Positions 7,260 through 25,146 of a stretch of DNA of 33,043 nt are shown piece after piece. Position numbers and translations under genes: made by a program. The DNA is from a virus, in the IMG/VR virus record IMGVR_UViG_3300024346_000282, positions 1 to 33,043 of that record; one strand, given 5' to 3'. How positions within the stretch are numbered: the stretch's first letter is position 1; each line of letters begins with the position of its first letter. A model generated the notes under the pieces. It was given only the letters and a program-made list of their open reading frames with translations, did no database searches and was not told the origin of the DNA.

Positions 7260-7968
7260 TCTATCGGTTTGTCAGTCTTTGAATTGAAGTATTGGAGATT
7301 CTCACTATACTCCCGTTCCGTCTTTTCAAGTAGTAGGGTTGTGTAGATGTCAATTGCTTTCTTCTCAAGGATTGGGTCGTATTTGAGAACGTCACCTTTC
7401 GCAAGCGCGTGTAAAGTGGCGAACCATCCGAACTGTTGTATCTTTTCAATCCCTGCGGCAATCTCATTGTCGTTTGGTTTGTCTGTGTACATATCTTCCC
7501 ACCTCTTTTGCCATTTCTCAAACTGCAAAAAAAAAACGCCCAATAGCCTAACGCTTCAGGAACTCGCAACCCTTTAATATCAACGCCCGTATACGTCTTA
7601 ATAATCAATTGAGATGCTGCAATCTCAGGAAGTTCTAACTCATTCACGCGCTTAAATTCGGCTTCTGAATTAATCAACTGCAACCATGTACCCTGCTCAA
7701 TAGATAGTTCTTTTACTTCGTCAGGTACTTCAATATATTCGGGTTTCTCGTTCCAAAAAAAGCCGCAAGAATTGAAGATAAAGGATTGAGACTCTAAACT
7801 CATTTCGTTAAAATCCTTCGTGCTTATTCCTGTAAGTGCTTCAATCGCTTCTGTAGTGTCATCGGTGCAAAGAGCGTTCACGTAGTCAATCCATTGCAGG
7901 TCATCAAACGACTGAGGTATCTTCTTGTCCTCAATCCCTCTTTCGGTTATGACTTTAATGCTTACCAT
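7256..7968 (-). CDS. Frameshifted tail-assembly-chaperone-like protein (237 aa if -1 shift)
   Basis: From ATG 7968 the first 147 codons read as a normal acidic protein (MVSIKVITERGIEDKKIPQS onward). At a run of ten T on the coding strand (7536-7527) the reading changes. Continuing in the same frame gives 88 residues with almost no acidic residues, ending at 7261. A -1 shift gives a normal charged, helical protein (FLQFEKWQKRWEDMYTDKP to SKTDKPIE) ending at 7256, whose TGA forms an ATGA overlap with the next gene like other junctions in this operon. The -1 product is therefore the genuine C-terminus. Either the ribosome or polymerase slips on the T tract, giving two products as in phage tail-assembly chaperones, or the tract has one T too few through mutation or sequencing. 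The gene sits just after the large terminase and about 5 kb from the tape measure gene, an unusual place for a tail chaperone. Identity beyond this is inferred. Confidence 0.6.
7527..7536 (-). other. T10 slippery homopolymer (-1 frameshift site)
   Basis: The coding strand reads GCG followed by ten T then GC. In the zero frame the codons are TTT TTT TTT TGC; after a -1 shift they are TTT TTT TTT TTG CAG. The run satisfies the X XXY YYZ heptamer for -1 slippage and is also long enough for RNA polymerase slippage or replication slippage. Both frames stay open for about 270 nt downstream and stop within 5 nt of each other. Confidence 0.7.
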
Positions 7969-11573: not shown

Positions 11574-11655
11574 TGTATTTTTGTTTTATCGTTTCTATTA
11601 TCGCCCTTACTCCGCAAAGAATGAAGAAACAGTAAATGCGTAGGGTTGTTATCAT
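11566..11655 (-). CDS. 29-aa hydrophobic peptide
   Basis: A very short gene starting at ATG 11655, which overlaps the TGA of the PP-loop gene as ATGA and runs 8 nt into the DnaA-like gene. The product is MITTLRIYCFFILCGVRAII with a polar tail ETIKQKYND, so it is a possible single membrane span. A second peptide of similar look, also starting MIT, occurs at 12761. Both follow an ATGA junction. Function is unknown. It may act mostly to carry ribosomes to the next start. Confidence 0.4.
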   Translation of the reverse strand: MITTLRIYCFFILCGVRAIIETIKQKYND

Positions 11656-11708
11656 TGGAATAGTTCTGTTTGCGTTGTGTCTTTCTTTCGAATAATACCC
11701 AAAGCCGT
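11650..11708 (-). repeat. Copy A of 59-bp repeat encoding the QTELF tail
   Basis: This segment is about 86% identical (8 mismatches by my count) to 13570-13628. Both encode TALGIIRKKDT-x-QTELF, the stop codon and the ATGA start of the next gene. Most of the mismatches are at third codon positions and leave the peptide unchanged. Confidence 0.8.
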
Positions 11709-12107
11709 AACGTACTTTTCCCCTTTAAAATACTCCTTTGCGTATTTGTGAATCGGCTTATCTTTTAATTCCCTTGTGCAATGTCTCCATAATTTAGACG
11801 GAAGTCCATACTTCTTGATTACATCTTCAAACGGTTCACCTTTACGGCTTGCGTTTTCATAGCTTACTATTCTGTAATCTGTACCGTTTCCTTTACCATC
11901 CTTTACCCACGCCTCAAGCCATTCAATGTCAATGTCAAATTCCGTTGAGCACTTATTAATAAAGTCAAGCGTTTCTGGTAATTCCTTTCCCGTGTTAGCA
12001 AACAGAAATAGTTTGTTGTAGTCTTTGTATTGTGGCAACTCGTTAATTAAAGTAGCCATAAAAGCGGAGGTTCTACCACCTGAGAATGTTATTAGTATAT
12101 TCTTCAT
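11652..12107 (-). CDS. PP-loop PAPS-reductase-like protein, N-terminal half with grafted C-terminal tag
   Basis: The 151-aa product has the PP-loop ATP-pyrophosphatase motif ITFSGGRTSAFM (residues 6-17), FANTGKELPETLDFI (37-50) and the RHCTRELKDKPIH segment (108-120). These belong to the PAPS reductase / adenine nucleotide alpha-hydrolase superfamily, which includes sulfate-activating and DNA-phosphorothioation (DndC) enzymes. Phage members usually run to over 200 residues. Here the protein stops right after KYVTALGI, where family members continue IRADE, and ends instead with RKKDTTQTELFQ, nearly identical to the C-terminus of the methyltransferase-like protein. ATG 12107 is chosen because it is directly before the PP-loop domain; an upstream non-ATG start would add only a basic stretch. 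A separate C-terminal half lies upstream at 12119-12649. Confidence 0.75.
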   Translation of the reverse strand: MKNILITFSGGRTSAFMATLINELPQYKDYNKLFLFANTGKELPETLDFINKCSTEFDIDIEWLEAWVKDGKGNGTDYRIVSYENASRKGEPFEDVIKKYGLPSKLWRHCTRELKDKPIHKYAKEYFKGEKYVTALGIIRKKDTTQTELFQ

Positions 12108-12118
12108 TTTCTTTTTTT

Positions 12119-12649
12119 TTATAGACCGCAATGTCCTGAGTCGCATTCGTTAAAATCATCATCAAACAACTCACCTTGCGGATTCCATTTCTTAATCTGC
12201 TCATAAGCAACATCACTTCGGAAAGTTCCTTTGCTTCCGTTTTCAATATCTGTAAACCATTGCATCTTTCGTCCCTCCTTGTCAAACATCTTTCTCAATA
12301 ACAACGGGCTTCTCCAATGGCAACCCACGCAGTTATTCATATAAGCAAAACGAACATCTTTATCCTTCCAAAATTCCTCAATAGTGTCTTTGTAAATATT
12401 GCCATCTATCAACGGAAACTCAGGCTTACAATAGTCGACTTCTTTCCATTTGTTTCTTCCGTCTTTGTGCTTTTCAAAGGTTGCCTTTACCCTTGTGAAT
12501 CCGTTTACCGTTTTCTCAAGCATACGCTCTGCTCGTCCCGTTTCATTTGCTCGATAACCAAAGCGCATTTCAACTGGTTCTTTTAGGTTCTCATAAATCC
12601 AATGTAGAATCGGCATCGTTTTTAAGTCCGTTGTGCAGTATCTAGCCAT
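12119..12649 (-). CDS. PAPS-reductase-like protein, C-terminal half
   Basis: The 176-aa product from ATG 12649 begins MARYCTTDLKTMPI, equivalent to the RHCTRELKDKPI segment in the middle of PAPS-reductase-like phage proteins, and continues RFGYRANETGR (29-39), a DT-x-EEFW segment (88-93) and a Cys pair NNCVGC (105-110), all features of the C-terminal half of that family. There is no PP-loop. Reading upstream in frame gives further family-like sequence (QVIKNHGGYLPNK) before a stop at 12698-12700, so the gene looks 5'-truncated. It contains QGELF (158-162) near a Cys-rich C-terminus (ECDSGHCGL). It may form a heterodimer with the N-terminal half encoded just downstream, or be a decaying remnant. 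The intact reading frame favours function. Confidence 0.65.
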   Translation of the reverse strand: MARYCTTDLKTMPILHWIYENLKEPVEMRFGYRANETGRAERMLEKTVNGFTRVKATFEKHKDGRNKWKEVDYCKPEFPLIDGNIYKDTIEEFWKDKDVRFAYMNNCVGCHWRSPLLLRKMFDKEGRKMQWFTDIENGSKGTFRSDVAYEQIKKWNPQGELFDDDFNECDSGHCGL

Positions 12650-14895: not shown

Positions 14896-16103
14896 TGTTC
14901 AAAGTGTTTTTGCGTGAAACTTTCTTTTAATTTGACCTTCTTATAAATCTGTAACTCAATACCATTTTCTGCCATTATGAACCACACTTCAGGCGGTGTT
15001 TCTCTATCCTTTGATGTGGCTCTATCCCTTCCTTGTAGGTAGCTTAAGGCACTAAACTCAATATTGTAATAAACTAAGCAATCAGCACTAGATAAATTAA
15101 CGCCCTCTCGGCTGCTTCTAATCTGACCAACGTATGTAGCCTCAGAATCTAAATTAAACGCTTCAGGGTTATCCGTACAGTTTGGAATCATTGCCTTAAT
15201 CATTGCAGCTTCTTCCTGGTAGACCGTGAAGATGGCTATTTTACGACCTTCAAACTTTCGGATGATAGCTTTGACTTTCGTGTTATCAACTTGCCTTGTT
15301 TCGTTCTCGCAGATTACAGTACCTCCACAAAGTTGGTGAACCTTTGACTGCATTTTTACGCCAGTATCCGCTAGTATTACATCCTCTTTACCCTCATAAA
15401 TCCCATCGTTTGAGATGGCTTTAATCATCTTGTAAGTTGATGGTCGCATTGGAACGGTCAAAACGTTCTCAATTATTGTTTGCGTGAACCCAGCTTGTTT
15501 CTGCGTGTACGATAGCATCAAAGGTCTAACGTAAGGCTCTATCTGATTCCATCTAGCATTAGAATAGTCATTGACTGCCTGACCAGTACCCACGTATGTT
15601 TTACCAATAGTCACGAAGTCTTTTGCCCAGGCGTAGAAATTACGGTACTTAGCGAAAGGGCTAAACGGATGCAGTTGGAACTGATGGAATAGCTGAGAAA
15701 ATCCTTCAGGACTTGGTGTACCTGATAAAAGAATTACGTAGCTGTTTTGGTCAATCATTGCCTTCAATTGCTTATAACGCTTTGACGGCTTCGGAAACGT
15801 TCCGCAACAATGCGCCTCATCAATAACAAAGTATTTAAACTTCTCAGTTACCTTGTGAAGGCTCTCGTAGTTGGTTACTACGGCATCAAAACCGATTAGT
15901 TTAGCATCCTCCTCAATTGACTTAATAGCTTTCTTTTTCGTTACGAATAGGCATCTATCAGCACCTATCTTTTGAAGCGTGGCTAATGCGGTTAGGGTTT
16001 TCCCAGTTCTCACTTCCATTGACAAGTAAACGAGTCGTCTTTTAGTTAAGACGTTAGACGCTTGGTCGGATAGTGTTTCTTGGTAATCTCTAAGTTTAAT
16101 CAT
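14868..16103 (-). CDS. SNF2/DEAD-like SF2 helicase
   Basis: The 411-aa protein starts MIKLRDYQETLSDQA (Q-motif-like RDYQ) and carries Walker A EVRTGKT (30-36), DEAH box VIDEAHC (93-99), motif III LLSGTPSPEG, and in the second RecA domain the motif V/VI region SREGVNLSSADCLV and LQGRDRATSKDR. The compact size is normal for phage SNF2-like helicases. It overlaps the primase-helicase gene by 4 nt (ATGA) and the VRR-NUC gene by 28 nt, forming a conserved phage pair. Role: DNA translocation or strand remodelling during replication or recombination. Confidence 0.88.
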   Translation of the reverse strand: MIKLRDYQETLSDQASNVLTKRRLVYLSMEVRTGKTLTALATLQKIGADRCLFVTKKKAIKSIEEDAKLIGFDAVVTNYESLHKVTEKFKYFVIDEAHCCGTFPKPSKRYKQLKAMIDQNSYVILLSGTPSPEGFSQLFHQFQLHPFSPFAKYRNFYAWAKDFVTIGKTYVGTGQAVNDYSNARWNQIEPYVRPLMLSYTQKQAGFTQTIIENVLTVPMRPSTYKMIKAISNDGIYEGKEDVILADTGVKMQSKVHQLCGGTVICENETRQVDNTKVKAIIRKFEGRKIAIFTVYQEEAAMIKAMIPNCTDNPEAFNLDSEATYVGQIRSSREGVNLSSADCLVYYNIEFSALSYLQGRDRATSKDRETPPEVWFIMAENGIELQIYKKVKLKESFTQKHFEQWKQSIKPK

Positions 16104-18499
16104 ATCTCAAAAGGGTCTGAATAGTCAATATCATCTATGTTTTCCATTTCCGTTTGGTTATCTCCATCCTCAAACTTTATCCATCTGAAATGGCTTTTTC
16201 CTTGTGATACTTTTAAGCCTTTGAAACTTCCGTATGATTCCAGCCAACCTGTGAATTTTCGTTGTGATAGCTTTCGGTCAAAATCTTTATACTCTAAAAC
16301 AAACTCGCCAAACTTCAATGCTTTATCTAGCCTTTCATTAATAGGTAGATTTTCATCACACCACTCAACAAACTCTGAAGACGTTTCTTTGATGAACTTT
16401 CTTTGCTCCAAGTTGACAGATTCGTGCGCTACTAAACCGTTAGCTAAATAGTATTGAACGCATCCAATCATAAAGTCATCAAACCGCTTCCATTCAGCCG
16501 CATCCCAATCATCAAACAGCATCTTGCCAAACTCATCAAATGGAGTATGGTGTGAACCAAAGTAGCTGCTAAATTCAATCTCGAACTTTCTACGCTCAAA
16601 CGAACCACCAACGCCTCCAATGGTGTAGTTAGTAGTTATGACCACTTTAGGCGAACGGCTAACAGGTACGTGAATAGCATCCTTGTTTTTTTTCTCTAAA
16701 GTTATGCCTTCAGTAATCAAACTAAATAACTGCTCAAAGGCGAAGTTCTTTTTCACATCGTCAAAGACCAGCACCTGGGTATCTGCTCCAACCGTTTGAT
16801 ATGGAAATGATTTATCGAAACTGAATTGCTTACCGTCCAAAGTAGCTACTCTTTTCATATGGTTGATGGCGTTGCAGAACATACCCTTTCCACTTCCACC
16901 GTTGGGGTTGTCGCTTATCAATTCATCATTCATTATGATAGCCCTATTTTGTCCTGAAGTCTTGCAAGAATGGAGCAAGTAACCGATAACTGAACGAAAG
17001 GAATTAAAACGCTGTTCATCGTTTGCGGTAACCAACCTTAAAAATTTCTCATACATCCCACTAATTGAACGCTCTGCCGTATATTCCCTATCAATTACGT
17101 GCTTTTTCCAAACAAACCCATCAAGGTCAATGTAGTCTATTGGTTTCACTTCATTCTTTGTAATCTCTAAAGCGCAGTTATTAAAATATAAGTAGCAAGT
17201 AGTATCTGTGTCCTTCTTTAGATTTACTTCCGCGGTTTGAAGCATTGACAAATAATCCTCTTTAAATAGCCGCGTTTGGTTAGCCATAAAATCGTATGGA
17301 GCATAGCCGATATCAGTTCTTTCGGACAAGTAATCTAGAACAAAATCCTTTATAAAAGTTGGCGCAGTATCTTCTAGCAAATTACTATCAATTTTTACGA
17401 ATAGATAAGACATAGCACCCTCAGGAAAGAACTTGCAGAACTGGTTTTGCTCCAGAAAGAACTTGTATTTGTGTGGGCTTAGTTGAACCTTTCCTTTGTC
17501 AGTATAGCCCCAAAAATCGGTGACGGCTAGTGTATCTTTAACAGACTCAAGAGCGGATTCTAAATCTTTTATTTCAGGAAGAACTTTTGCTATTTCAGAT
17601 TGCTTCTTTCCTGACCTTATCAGCTTTTCAACCTTCGCTTTTGCGTGGTCATCTTCAAAGAATCTTGTCCCGTGTCTTTCGGTGCTTCTATAAGCAGACT
17701 TAACAACTCTACTTATTTCAGTTTCGGTAAATGGCTCATCACCACCTTGAGCGTATTGGTGCAGGTGCCTTTCAGCTTCGTTTTGGTTAATGCCGAAAGA
17801 GTTTAAAGCATTGGCAAACTTATACATATTTTGGTTTCTGCTTCCTTTAGTATTACCATACTTCTTTTCCCACCAAGTAGTTAAGTTAGAAATAATACGG
17901 TTCTCGCTTTGGACTGGAATAAAGCATTCATCCATATTTTTACCAACGCTTTGCTCGTCAGGCTCTGCAATCTCAACCCAGGTTAAAGCATCCACGTTTA
18001 GATAAAGTTCGGGGTCATAACTTTCGTAGCAAACTCTACTAATATCACTAACACTTTTATCAAAATATTCACAGTCCCAAACTAGTGCAATCGAATCAAA
18101 GTAAGCTTTGTGTTTAGACGGGTCAGGTGGTATTCTCACTAGTACCTTTAATCCGTTACCGCTGGGGCTAGTAAAAACTGAATAGGTGTATTCCCAAGCC
18201 TCTAAAGTGTCGCGGTAAGATTGGAGCATATCAGCATCGGGGAATTTGTCAAAGTCTAAGCATATTAAACCGCTTGGTTGTTTTAATCCTGATATTGAAC
18301 GATTCGTAAACGTTCCGCTGAAACAAATAGAAGGAAGCCACTTCTTTAATTCATCACGCTTTCCCTTGTCCGATTCTAATCTAATACGGCTCAGTAGTTC
18401 TTTGCTGTTGCCGTTCTTTATGCGACTTAGCGCAAAGTCAACAGACCTATTAAACCCAGCGGCTGTTGCTAGAATGTTTTTGAATATGGTTATTGTCAT
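16100..18499 (-). CDS. Primase (VirE_N/BT4734-type) fused to SF3 helicase
   Basis: The 799-aa protein from ATG 18499 begins MTITIFKNILATAAGFNRSV, as in BT4734-type proteins. Residues 1-175 form a VirE_N-type primase-like domain with LICLDFDKF (78-86, metal-binding D-x-D) and SPSGNGLKVLV (111-121). A small helical domain follows (220-275, KGSRNQNMYKFA). The C-terminal half is an SF3-type ATPase: Walker A NGGSGKG (533-539), Walker B VLVFDDV (576-582), sensor ITTN (621-624) and an Arg-finger region SFERRKF. The enzyme likely primes and unwinds phage DNA. Alternative starts upstream (ATG 18535, TTG 18541) would place the start inside a strong RNA structure, so 18499 is preferred. The gene has its own promoter and a structured 150-nt leader. 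Confidence 0.88.
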   Translation of the reverse strand: MTITIFKNILATAAGFNRSVDFALSRIKNGNSKELLSRIRLESDKGKRDELKKWLPSICFSGTFTNRSISGLKQPSGLICLDFDKFPDADMLQSYRDTLEAWEYTYSVFTSPSGNGLKVLVRIPPDPSKHKAYFDSIALVWDCEYFDKSVSDISRVCYESYDPELYLNVDALTWVEIAEPDEQSVGKNMDECFIPVQSENRIISNLTTWWEKKYGNTKGSRNQNMYKFANALNSFGINQNEAERHLHQYAQGGDEPFTETEISRVVKSAYRSTERHGTRFFEDDHAKAKVEKLIRSGKKQSEIAKVLPEIKDLESALESVKDTLAVTDFWGYTDKGKVQLSPHKYKFFLEQNQFCKFFPEGAMSYLFVKIDSNLLEDTAPTFIKDFVLDYLSERTDIGYAPYDFMANQTRLFKEDYLSMLQTAEVNLKKDTDTTCYLYFNNCALEITKNEVKPIDYIDLDGFVWKKHVIDREYTAERSISGMYEKFLRLVTANDEQRFNSFRSVIGYLLHSCKTSGQNRAIIMNDELISDNPNGGSGKGMFCNAINHMKRVATLDGKQFSFDKSFPYQTVGADTQVLVFDDVKKNFAFEQLFSLITEGITLEKKNKDAIHVPVSRSPKVVITTNYTIGGVGGSFERRKFEIEFSSYFGSHHTPFDEFGKMLFDDWDAAEWKRFDDFMIGCVQYYLANGLVAHESVNLEQRKFIKETSSEFVEWCDENLPINERLDKALKFGEFVLEYKDFDRKLSQRKFTGWLESYGSFKGLKVSQGKSHFRWIKFEDGDNQTEMENIDDIDYSDPFEI

Positions 18500-18509
18500 T
18501 TTAAATAAC

Positions 18510-18585
18510 CCTAAAGGAGCAGTATGTGCCAACATACCCAAATGCGCTACCGACCAGGTAGGAACGCATAAGTTGCCCCTTTAGG
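18510..18585 (-). promoter_or_regulatory. Three-way-junction RNA in the primase leader
   Basis: On the minus-strand RNA, CCUAAAGGGGCA (18585-18574) pairs with UGCUCCUUUAGG (18521-18510) as 12 bp with one G-U. Enclosed are hairpin P2 (UGCG plus CUACC closing on GGUAG plus CGCA, loop UGGUC, UUC bulge) and hairpin P3 (GUAUGU/ACAUAC, loop UGGC). The structure ends 10 nt before the primase ATG. An upstream leader segment GACCAGGU (18620-18613) is complementary to ACCUGGUC (18559-18552) in P2, so an alternative fold is possible. No known riboswitch or ribozyme signature was recognised. A DNA cruciform role near the possible origin is the alternative. Confidence 0.6.
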
Positions 18586-18655
18586 AATTTCTTTTTAGTA
18601 CGTTTTTCTGTAACCTGGTCATTCTAAAGAATCCGCTTTTGGCTTGCGAACAATG

Positions 18656-18684
18656 CAAATGTAAATAATAATTCAATACCACAA
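18656..18684 (-). promoter_or_regulatory. Promoter of the primase operon
   Basis: Minus strand TTG (18684-18682), within GTTGTGG, 18 bp spacer, TACATTTG (18663-18656), fitting TAnnTTTG. Transcription would start near 18650, giving a leader of about 150 nt. It lacks the 15-bp upstream element of the three other strong promoters, so it may belong to a different timing class. Confidence 0.6.
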
Positions 18685-18726
18685 CACATTTATTTTCTTT
18701 TTTAAAAAAGCACTAGTGTACACAAA

Positions 18727-18898
18727 TTACGCCACATCGAAAAACCACTAAGGCGTTAGAGTATCAATGAGTTACGCCATTTACGCCCTATCTTTATCTT
18801 TTTTCAGATTTTCAAAATAAAAAAAATAGCCCGATTCGTCAAAGTAAAAAAGAATAGAGAGTAGGGAATTAGTGTATAAGTCGTAGATAGGGCGTAAA
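18727..18898. repeat. TTACGCC repeats and 14-bp inverted repeat (candidate origin or operator)
   Basis: TTACGCC occurs at 18727-18733, 18772-18778 and 18781-18787, and inverted at 18891-18897, with a near copy inverted at 18752-18758 (GGCGTTA). TTTACGCCCTATCT (18780-18793) is perfectly inverted at 18885-18898. The cluster is next to an AT-rich tract and upstream of the primase-helicase gene, the layout of an iteron origin; operators for a repressor are the alternative. Confidence 0.5.
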
Positions 18899-18924
18899 AA
18901 AACCCCCACCGATATGGCAGGGGC
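18896..18924 (-). terminator. Rho-independent terminator after the SSB operon
   Basis: On the minus strand CCCC-TG-CC, loop ATATC, GG-T-GGGGG is followed by seven T, 25 nt after the SSB-like gene stop. The T run overlaps one arm of the 14-bp inverted repeat. Confidence 0.75.
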
Positions 18925-18948
18925 TTGGTTAAGGGGTTGGATTAGATT

Positions 18949-19308
18949 TTAAAAGGGCAGAATCTCAATTTCTTCATATTCAATCGGTTGTGGCGTTTGC
19001 GCGGCTTGCTCAACTCGTTCGCCTGCCATTACTTTCCACGCCTGGAGACTTGTGTAGTACTTGCCTTTCCACTCGTTTGTCCGTATGTTAAAGCTAACCT
19101 CAACTTCTTGCCCTAGCTTGTTGTACTTGATGAAATTATCGACTTTTTCCGTGCCGAATATTTCAAATGCAAAGATTTGTTCAGCCCCTTCGTAGCCGTT
19201 ATTATTGGCAATTACGAAATTGAGTTTTTTCCATTCTTTGCCGTTTTGCGAAGTACCTGACTCAACTGGTAGCACATTCTTGATTGTTCCTTTTTCTTTG
19301 TATTCCAT
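18949..19308 (-). CDS. DUF3127 SSB-like single-stranded DNA-binding protein
   Basis: The 119-aa product has the OB-fold pattern of DUF3127: KGTIKNVLPVESGTSQNGKEW, KLNFVIANNN, IFAFEIFG, then LGQEVEVSFNIRTNEWKGKY followed by YTSLQAWKVM. The C-terminus is acidic and ends EEIEILPF, like the SSB tip (DDIPF) that recruits replication and repair proteins. It is the last gene of the ERF operon and is followed by a terminator. Role: coats ssDNA during replication and annealing by the ERF protein. Family and role are fairly secure; partner binding is inferred. Confidence 0.82.
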   Translation of the reverse strand: MEYKEKGTIKNVLPVESGTSQNGKEWKKLNFVIANNNGYEGAEQIFAFEIFGTEKVDNFIKYNKLGQEVEVSFNIRTNEWKGKYYTSLQAWKVMAGERVEQAAQTPQPIEYEEIEILPF

Positions 19309-19336
19309 TTTTATTATTGATTATTTGATTACTTAA

Positions 19337-19831
19337 TTACTTAATTTGCAAGTTGTATCTAGTCTCAATCTCGAATCCTTCAACCGTTTCGCCTTCCTTG
19401 ATAGCCTTTTTGATAGCTGTTAGATTGGGCTTTGAGGTCTCAGGTACTACGGTAACAAACTCATCGTCTAGTTTGACTTCATCCATTGTACAGATAACGC
19501 CCTCTGATTTGCGAAAGTTGATTTTCAGCGTTTCGGTTTTGATTTCGTTGATGCCGTACAAGTCCATTGCAATGTGAATGTTTTGCTTTAACCTGGTAGA
19601 CTTGTTTTGTTCCGTCTTTTTAAGCCCTTGTAACCGCTTAATTTCAGCATCAATAGCAGTAATAGTATCATCAGCTTCTTTGATTATGTAGGCATACGCT
19701 ACGGCTTTCCCTTGCAGTTGTGATTCGTTTATCGCTAGAGCAGTTTCCAGTTCGGGAGTCAGTTCCCCATCCTCCAATTGGTTGGTTATTTCCAAGTATT
19801 CTGCTTCGATGTTGTAAAGTGATTTCTTCAT
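19337..19831 (-). CDS. Siphovirus Gp157-like protein
   Basis: The 164-aa product begins MKKSLYNIEAEYLEITNQLE with an N-terminal coiled coil, then AYAYIIKEADDTITAIDAEI, a second helix (KRLQGLKKTEQNKSTRLKQN), and a C-terminal beta part (KTETLKINFRKSEGV, VPETSKPNLTAIKKAIKEGE, GFEIETRYNLQIK). This is the full layout of the Sipho_Gp157 family, often found beside ERF or RecT-type recombination genes and in some phages linked to resistance or recombination; the molecular function is not settled. It follows the ERF gene after 36 nt and precedes the SSB-like gene. Confidence 0.82.
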   Translation of the reverse strand: MKKSLYNIEAEYLEITNQLEDGELTPELETALAINESQLQGKAVAYAYIIKEADDTITAIDAEIKRLQGLKKTEQNKSTRLKQNIHIAMDLYGINEIKTETLKINFRKSEGVICTMDEVKLDDEFVTVVPETSKPNLTAIKKAIKEGETVEGFEIETRYNLQIK

Positions 19832-19867
19832 TTTCTTGTTCTCTTAATTGGTTAAAAATTTCTTTGC

Positions 19868-20413
19868 TCATTTTAAAACGTCATCCATTAACGCGGTTTT
19901 GTTTACTTCCGTTAAGGCATATTTCCCTTCGATTGCTGAAATTAACCCTCCATCAACTAGGTACTGAACAGCCTTGCTCCATTCGGTAGATTTTGGTTTT
20001 AACTCAGGCTTTGCTGCTTGTCGTTTAGGTGGTGCGCTTGCCTTTTGACCATCGTCATCCTCATCAATGTTTAATGATAAGATTGCGCCCAAAGCGTACC
20101 GTCTAGCATAAGTAATTGCGCTCCCTAGTTTCTGTGGGTCTGTAGCATCCTTAACAGGCGTGGAAGAAACCGAACTAATCCATTCTCCTGACTCGTGCAA
20201 AAGAAGCGTTGTAAGCCCTTCAATGCTCGGCAACTGTAAAACACTAAGCCCGTTGTCATTTAGTGGCTTTGTGACCGCTTCAATAATGTTTGAAAGACTT
20301 GCGTACTTATTTTTGAAGAATGGGTTTTTGGCATCCTTAGAAACCTTCCCCACTACCGAATGAAACTTTACCATTGCTTTGGCTAGTTCCGTTATTGATT
20401 CTGACTTGTTCAT
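19868..20413 (-). CDS. erf: ERF-family single-strand annealing protein
   Basis: The 181-aa product from ATG 20413 (MNKSESITELAKAMVKFHSV) has the ERF core: KNPFFKNKYASLSNIIEAVT, LNDNGLSVLQLP, TLLLHESGEWI, and QKLGSAITYARRYALGAILS, then an acidic DEDDDG. ERF proteins anneal complementary single strands for recombination and genome circularisation. The C-terminal third (after a Pro/Lys-rich linker at about 125-140) is a small extra domain. A farther upstream in-frame ATG (20461) would run into the preceding gene, so 20413 is preferred, 11 nt after that gene's stop. Partners likely are the SSB-like and Gp157 proteins encoded next. Confidence 0.87.
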   Translation of the reverse strand: MNKSESITELAKAMVKFHSVVGKVSKDAKNPFFKNKYASLSNIIEAVTKPLNDNGLSVLQLPSIEGLTTLLLHESGEWISSVSSTPVKDATDPQKLGSAITYARRYALGAILSLNIDEDDDGQKASAPPKRQAAKPELKPKSTEWSKAVQYLVDGGLISAIEGKYALTEVNKTALMDDVLK

Positions 20414-24269: not shown

Positions 24270-25146
24270 ACGTTCCTGTTATTTTAGCGAATCCAGCACC
24301 CGTTGTAATCGTTCTTTTGGCTGCAATGGTATCTCCAATTGATAACGCTGTTGGATTAACGAACGCGGCAAACCCCCCACCGTTTACATTGTAGGTAATA
24401 TCTCCACTACTTCCATCGTCTGAAGTGCTTGTGAATGTTCCTGCGTTGTCTGAATCAATGGTTAGTGTTCCCGTTTCATCGTTTGTCGCTTCAAATCCAA
24501 ACTTGATGAACAGGCTTTTAACTTGTGGTGTACACGTAAGATTTTGAACACTTGGAACACTTGAAGTAGTACCATCAGAATCTGTGAATGTAATATCAGG
24601 CAGAACTAAACTACCTTCAGCCGCAACCGTAGCCGAATAACTAGCATCTGAATTAGCAACCGTTGCATCGTCAACCCTCCAATATTGCCCTTGTTTACTA
24701 CCTACTAATGTTGCGCCCGTTTCTTGTCTTACTTCGATGTTTTCCGTGTCTCCCGAAGGTATGTTTTCCATAAAAACACCGTTAATGTTAACGGTTGCAT
24801 CTGCACAGGCTGCGCTAGTAACTTCCCAAGAATCACCATCCCAAGAACCTGAAGGTGAGCCGTCAAGGTTTACGACCAAATTAACAGAACCTTCAGCGAC
24901 AACCGAACCAGTTGCCCCTAAACTATCACCGTTTACCGTAACTGTAGAATCTCCAATAACAGATGGATTTGCTTCAGTTCCGATTGGATTAGCCGCGCTA
25001 TCTTGAATGACTTGGTTATTCGTTCCACCACTTACAATAGTCCCAATTGTTACCCCGTTGATTTGCTCGGTAACGTCAGCACCGTCTATAACTGTTACTG
25101 AATTAGTTGATGCGGTAATTGTTGTTTTGCTCTTTACGCTGGTCAT
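24262..25146 (-). CDS. Fibre- or spike-like structural protein with internal repeats
   Basis: The 294-aa product is Thr/Ser/Gly/Asp-rich with almost no Lys/Arg in long stretches: GDSTVTVNGDSLGATGSVVA, NGVFMENIPSGDTENIEVRQ and SDASYSATVAAEGSLVLPDI. Repeated blocks (a GDSTVTVN type and a SGDTENIEVRQ type) recur in many Bacteroidota phage virion proteins. The C-terminal third is a Gly-rich beta region (TLTIDSDNAGTFTSTSDDGS). It is ATGA-linked to the 127-aa gene and overlaps the adhesin gene by 8 nt, so the two likely form one fibre or spike complex. The specific role is inferred. Confidence 0.6.
   Translation of the reverse strand: MTSVKSKTTITASTNSVTVIDGADVTEQINGVTIGTIVSGGTNNQVIQDSAANPIGTEANPSVIGDSTVTVNGDSLGATGSVVAEGSVNLVVNLDGSPSGSWDGDSWEVTSAACADATVNINGVFMENIPSGDTENIEVRQETGATLVGSKQGQYWRVDDATVANSDASYSATVAAEGSLVLPDITFTDSDGTTSSVPSVQNLTCTPQVKSLFIKFGFEATNDETGTLTIDSDNAGTFTSTSDDGSSGDITYNVNGGGFAAFVNPTALSIGDTIAAKRTITTGAGFAKITGTYV

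Follow-up and report, generated by a model that had tools for sequence, protein, structure and literature searches.

What is the structured RNA that precedes the gene for a phage primase-helicase, and what might it do there? The question is raised by a 33-kb virus record of IMG/VR (IMGVR_UViG_3300024346_000282), the whole of which (33,043 nucleotides) is called the window below. Upstream of the primase-helicase gene lie the genes for SSB (DUF3127), Gp157 and Erf, which indicate a Bacteroidota host for the phage. No homologue of the primase was confirmed in GTDB genomes. The window also encodes, at 11652-12146 on the minus strand, a phosphoadenosine phosphosulfate reductase-like protein, whose gene is a known auxiliary gene of phages. 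We read and folded the minus-strand stretch 18650-18490 (161 nt) and compared it with 200 dinucleotide shuffles. The features of the locus are as follows:

16100-18499, minus strand: gene of the VirE-type primase-helicase, 799 aa, with a BT4734-like N-terminal domain, PriCT-1 and DUF5906; the A of its ATG is at 18499
18503-18510, minus strand: GGUUAUUU, just before the start codon, paired with GAAUGACC in the free-energy minimum
18510-18521, minus strand: 3' arm of the closing stem, UGCUCCUUUAGG, read and folded
18522-18537, minus strand: hairpin P3, GUAUGU/ACAUAC with the loop UGGC, from folding
about 18542-18569, minus strand: hairpin P2, with segment B in its tip, from folding
18552-18559, minus strand: segment B, ACCUGGUC, the exact reverse complement of A
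18574-18585, minus strand: 5' arm of the closing stem, CCUAAAGGGGCA, read and folded
18613-18620, minus strand: segment A, GACCAGGU, complementary to B, the pair being conserved in relatives
18656-18663, minus strand: Bacteroidota-type -7 promoter element TACATTTG, read directly

The established -7 consensus of Bacteroidota is of the TAnnTTTG type. The window element (18663-18656), which has a -33-like GTTG 18 nt upstream of it (18685-18682), fits this consensus, in line with a Bacteroidota host, and it places the predicted start of transcription near 18650, 5' of segment A. Just upstream of this promoter, at 18727-18897, are GGCGTAA repeats, three on the minus and one on the plus strand; the motif occurs 7 times in the window against 2.7 expected, and such repeats are also found upstream of the leader in the relatives L003, L004, L007, L010 and L011. 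They are possibly iterons or operators.

The architecture of the leader proved to be as the original prediction had it: a closing stem of 12 bp (CCUAAAGGGGCA/UGCUCCUUUAGG, with one G-U) encloses P2 and P3, both of which form, and its 3' arm stops exactly 10 nt ahead of the primase ATG, with no U-tract after it. The 76-nt core reaches -33.3 kcal/mol (z = -4.8), a stability equalled by none of the 200 dinucleotide shuffles, so that the fold withstood the shuffled-sequence control proposed for it; for the whole 161-nt stretch z is -2.5, with 3 of 200 shuffles as good. The 8-nt complementarity between A and B, likewise pointed out earlier, is exact. The octamer has only two copies in 33 kb (0.45 expected), and the code GACCAGGT/ACCTGGTC is the sole GACCAGGT pair in the window. 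To leave both segments unpaired and available to one another, the fold gives up about 5 kcal/mol (-38.6 versus -43.5), while the A:B duplex gives back -13.0 kcal/mol, which makes the alternative pairing energetically credible. The further claim that this pairing breaks P2, rendering the leader bistable, stands for the 4-bp tip of P2, which opens, and falls for the remainder, since the lower stem of P2, P3 and the closing stem all stay. In the window, B is thus a hairpin tip and A lies outside any clear hairpin; A has two possible partners, B and the stretch right before the AUG, the latter being reached by GAAUGACC, which consists of A and its 5' flank. Among the relatives inspected, the pairing of GAAUGACC with GGUUAUUU occurs in the window member only.

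Relatives of the primase were gathered from viral contigs. Many are of a marine type (44-46% primase identity), with CGACAT repeats and no structured leader, and hence the primase does not need the leader. In a second set, a structured leader is combined with a TAnnTTTG element located 99-200 nt upstream of the ATG (TATATTTG/TATCTTTG in most leader-bearing relatives). The letters of this leader are wholly unlike those of the window, while its plan is identical: behind the promoter comes A, in a 5' segment or a hairpin; an AU-rich linker leads on to a stable hairpin that contains B, the reverse complement of A, and a U-rich stretch then precedes the ATG. Segment A is here usually a hairpin loop of 6-9 nt, and the AU-rich linker between A and B measures 10-40 nt. 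The plan is at its plainest in L168, where AGAAT[GATGCAG]ATTCT and GG[CTGCATC]CC present two fully complementary loops of exactly 7 nt each. Against its code of GATGCAG/CTGCATC stand AGTGGTAG/CTACCACT in L137, CTGGAAG/CTTCCAG in L135, GATACAG/CTGTATC in L179, CTCACTAC/GTAGTGAG in L202, CTCTCTGA/TCAGAGAG in L138, AACCGACCAA/TTGGTCGGTT in L017, GTGCGA/TCGCAC in L003, GTAGCAG/CTGCTAC in L007 and TAGCGG/CCGCTA in L010. There are departures from the plan: A lies outside a clear hairpin in L017 as it does in the window, L005 has weak pairing (6 bp), and the U-tract is missing in both of these and in the window member. The three-way junction of the original prediction is present in the window as a local variant, P3 not being common to most relatives.

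These comparisons bear on the nature of the leader. It had been taken for a riboswitch or a protein-controlled switch with two exclusive folds, and it does look regulated: it stands before a start codon, and in the window A pairs with either B or the pre-AUG stretch. No primary sequence conserved across the groups was found, though, and therefore none that could form a pocket, which makes a metabolite riboswitch unlikely; protein control is conceivable. The best 7- and 8-mers in the linker did no better than those of shuffled sequence. Two exclusive folds also do not hold as a general principle, because A and B are in most relatives loops able to kiss with their hairpins intact. Since the two hairpins stay in place, kissing between their loops is the more natural reading, and it does not require exclusive folds. 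We accordingly regard a leader with two exclusive folds, whether as a riboswitch or as a site bound by a protein of phage or host (such as the primase or SSB), as highly improbable. Judged by the sequences, the conserved object is the complementary loop pair behind the promoter.

Could such pairs arise by chance? We assembled 18 non-redundant primase leaders, defined by promoter and primase start and with the hairpin found by folding, complementarity playing no part in the choice. The complementarity of their own A and B amounts to 8.8 kcal/mol, whereas swapped pairs give 3.6; in none of 20,000 permutations was the value of the own pairs reached. In an alignment of ten leaders (A5), every cell of the A:B helix (100%) is paired, with three of seven pairs changed on both sides and none broken. 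The compensatory changes that the earlier reading had called for are thus present in the primase leaders of relatives. For the whole structure of A5, none of 500 shuffles reached its covariation score or its share of cells paired, and the signal collapses on sliding. A descriptor requiring hairpin A, an enclosing stem and a B complementary to A was then applied to all the fetched DNA, which has 4,390 distinct promoter-like sites: it matched 59 real sites against 8 shuffled at dG <= -28, and 71 against 14 at -25. About 14% of the hits at the best threshold would accordingly be expected from shuffles, and the matches in L255 and L280 look like tRNAs; relaxing the threshold to -21 and asking for a good -7 element gives 86 sites and 61 codes, some of the sites surely due to chance. 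The window leader itself is absent from the strict matches because its A lacks a clear hairpin. Of 45 elements, 62% show five or more U within 8 nt behind the stem, as against 6% of linker windows; with a GC-containing stem such elements would resemble an intrinsic terminator, and the window member is not among them. The descriptor counts, the permutations and the covariation in A5 together reject chance. An element acting as DNA, such as a replication-origin hairpin, would fit the adjoining replication genes and GGCGTAA repeats; the leader, however, always lies in the sense orientation between promoter and gene, often with a U-tract. We consider it very improbable that a DNA-level element or chance accounts for the family.

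The leader most likely limits the amount of DNA-copying machinery made. As for the means, we give an even chance to its being a promoter-proximal kissing-loop attenuator of the phage replication operon that acts in cis. Transcription would start just 5' of A, A and B would pair within one RNA molecule, and the B hairpin would lower the expression of the downstream gene. In most members the B hairpin and the U-tract may form an intrinsic terminator, and the U-tract in these argues for attenuation of transcription. In the window member, which has none, the block would come from the hairpin standing 10 nt before the AUG; here, and in L005 and L017, which are likewise devoid of a U-tract, translation is the likelier level. 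The A:B kiss would then set the strength or timing of the block, so that the output of primase-helicase is limited or delayed; the effect might run in either direction, the kiss being the off or the on state. The short linker favours pairing in cis. Speaking against an attenuator are the missing U-tract in the window, L017 and L005, the unclear A hairpin in the window and L017, and the leaderless marine group. A plainer alternative is that a stable 5' fold protects the transcript from decay or stops upstream read-through, with no switching at all. Stable 5' hairpins directly behind promoters and before various genes would suit such a role, but the complementarity kept between the loops of unrelated leaders would go unexplained, and we find it improbable.

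A different kind of evidence comes from genomes with several leaders and from cultured phages. When the whole contigs of 16 relatives were scanned, four leaders with the codes CTGGTAG, GGTCAG, GTCGTCG and GTGGTCG were found in G009, and G003, G005, G010 and G011 each had one more before another gene. The genes behind the extra leaders include small ORFs preceding the primase and HNH-type ORFs (named by eye). At the descriptor stringency used the window has one leader only, and none of its other promoters has a comparable leader at dG <= -28. The genes behind the leader are in most cases replication genes, in cultured phages too. In Flavobacterium phage elemoF (NC_055853), the leader with the code GTGGAGG/CCTCCAC is followed by a small ORF and by the genes for a replication initiation protein and the primase. 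Polaribacter phage Leef_1 (NC_062750, 24538, plus strand) has the code TGCAACAT/ATGTTGCA, and A recurs in its start-codon region as ATGCAACAT. Such a copy, at or within 5 nt of the start codon, occurs in three cases (L127 at 4709, L163 at 2404 and L298, which is Leef_1, at 24538), before two HNH-type ORFs and one Leef_1 gene, and B could there pair with the start site. A third copy of A as a general feature was rejected, with 9 matches of at least 7 nt against 3.1 expected and none in the window.

The 68 elemo records, all from one host, have three leader types. The sister phages elemoA 7-9A and elemoA 13-1A, which infect Flavobacterium sp. BAL314, are 98.6-99.8% identical over long aligned blocks (30 kb compared), while their leaders are only 70-83% identical, the leader and the adjoining tRNA stretch being among the few divergent spots. 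The 28-nt linker and the foot of the terminator are kept, and A and B differ together, being TGAGAGC/GCTCTCA in 7-9A and GTGAGATG/CATCTCAC in 13-1A. Since the two genomes are also unlike in the sequence that precedes the promoter, exchange by recombination may be involved. Beside the leader one of these near-identical phages has a tRNA-Ala and the other a tRNA-Met (L299 438-513, L300 53-126), another hot spot of exchange.

In these sister phages the leader outpaces its flanks in divergence, which a purely cis-acting device would not need. The main rival to the cis attenuator is a specificity RNA acting in trans, by analogy with the CI RNA of phage P4: terminated short leader RNAs would accumulate and pair through their B loop with A in freshly transcribed leaders, or through A with the B loop of these. 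The replication operon of a phage of the same type would thereby be switched off, as a form of copy-number control or superinfection exclusion. The order of parts, with the complement upstream of the RNA and replication genes downstream, resembles that in P4 (PMC4825925). A trans-acting RNA would also explain why close relatives differ in code, as the elemoA pair does in A and B together within one host, and it is consistent with the second A copy at three start codons and with the four differently coded leaders of G009. On the other hand, with A and B on one molecule and a linker of 10-40 nt, pairing in cis should win; the start-codon copy is not general, the window proteins that were scanned include no integrase, and other groups keep the code while the stems change (L179-L200, a case on account of which fast loop evolution as a universal rule was rejected). 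We hold action in trans to be a tentative possibility. The stronger proposal of a widespread identity system made of RNA only, in which every phage type would have its own matched loop codes and the terminated leader RNA would recognise nascent leaders of the same code and curb the replication of its own kind, is slightly more doubtful still. If it were true, it would serve copy control or superinfection exclusion, from which related phages with other codes escape.

How does the family, with the cis attenuator as its preferred reading, relate to known systems? That the leader belongs to no known class was borne out in Rfam, which at its curated thresholds had nothing for the window and only tRNAs in the loci of 29 relatives; in the window there was also no meaningful weak match up to E 5. 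The window leader showed no DNA similarity in GenBank phages, and the open literature searched on phage structured RNAs, P4, the HK022 put RNA and kissing leaders does not describe the family, an earlier mention elsewhere being possible. C4 antisense RNA of P1, P7 and relatives, which is in Rfam, is likewise a phage leader RNA with short complementary stretches on the same strand; our leader has no Rfam match and a different architecture. Transcription attenuators share the sequence of promoter, leader hairpin with U-tract and gene, but most members of the family have no antiterminator stem, and the terminator loop is instead complementary to the 5' loop. As in kissing loops, the loops of the family are complementary over 6-8 nt with compensatory changes, the A hairpin of the window being unclear. 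In P4 immunity, the CI RNA acts with seqA and seqC, a complement lies in the untranslated leader of the replication operon, and premature termination is affected (PMC4825925). Both systems have complementary segments on the same strand with the complement upstream of a structured RNA (PMC4825925), and a seqA-like upstream complement of the RNA's loop within the same leader is present in the family. Unlike in P4, the two halves are usually hairpin loops of 6-9 nt, the second hairpin has the look of a terminator, one genome may contain several codes, and the seqC-like downstream complement is absent in the window and not general in the family. In ColIb-P9 (IncI-alpha), translation of the replication protein RepZ needs a leader pseudoknot upstream of the ribosome site (PMC8383071). 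There the antisense RNA comes from the opposite strand, whereas a scan of the plus strand at 15266-20308 found no antisense -7 element of the TAnnTTYG type near the window leader; moreover, B of the family sits in a second hairpin. By analogy, the working principle would be closest to P4 CI immunity and the ColIb repZ pseudoknot, and membership in either fails on the features tested. What appears to be new is a leader outside Rfam in which kissing loops on the same strand have codes that vary and yet match.

The family, placed on the replication operon, is common among phages with hosts of Bacteroidota type; its members come from aquatic samples and, as cultured phages, from Flavobacterium and Polaribacter. 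The matched loop pairs that vary between near-identical phages amount to a library of orthogonal kissing pairs provided by nature, and through them control or recognition by RNA in phages of Bacteroidota can be tested directly in cultured phage-host pairs. Another type of primase leader is seen in L147, L148, L160, L170 and L183, where a GGGG/CCCC stem with a U-tract encloses a hairpin whose loop (e.g. TTCACTGTT) is the complement of AACAGTGAA, which lies 3' of the terminator; this is a different pseudoknot. In L156 (about 7401-7600), a leader hairpin with the code ACCGCCAAG is followed directly by a tRNA-like gene instead of an ORF.
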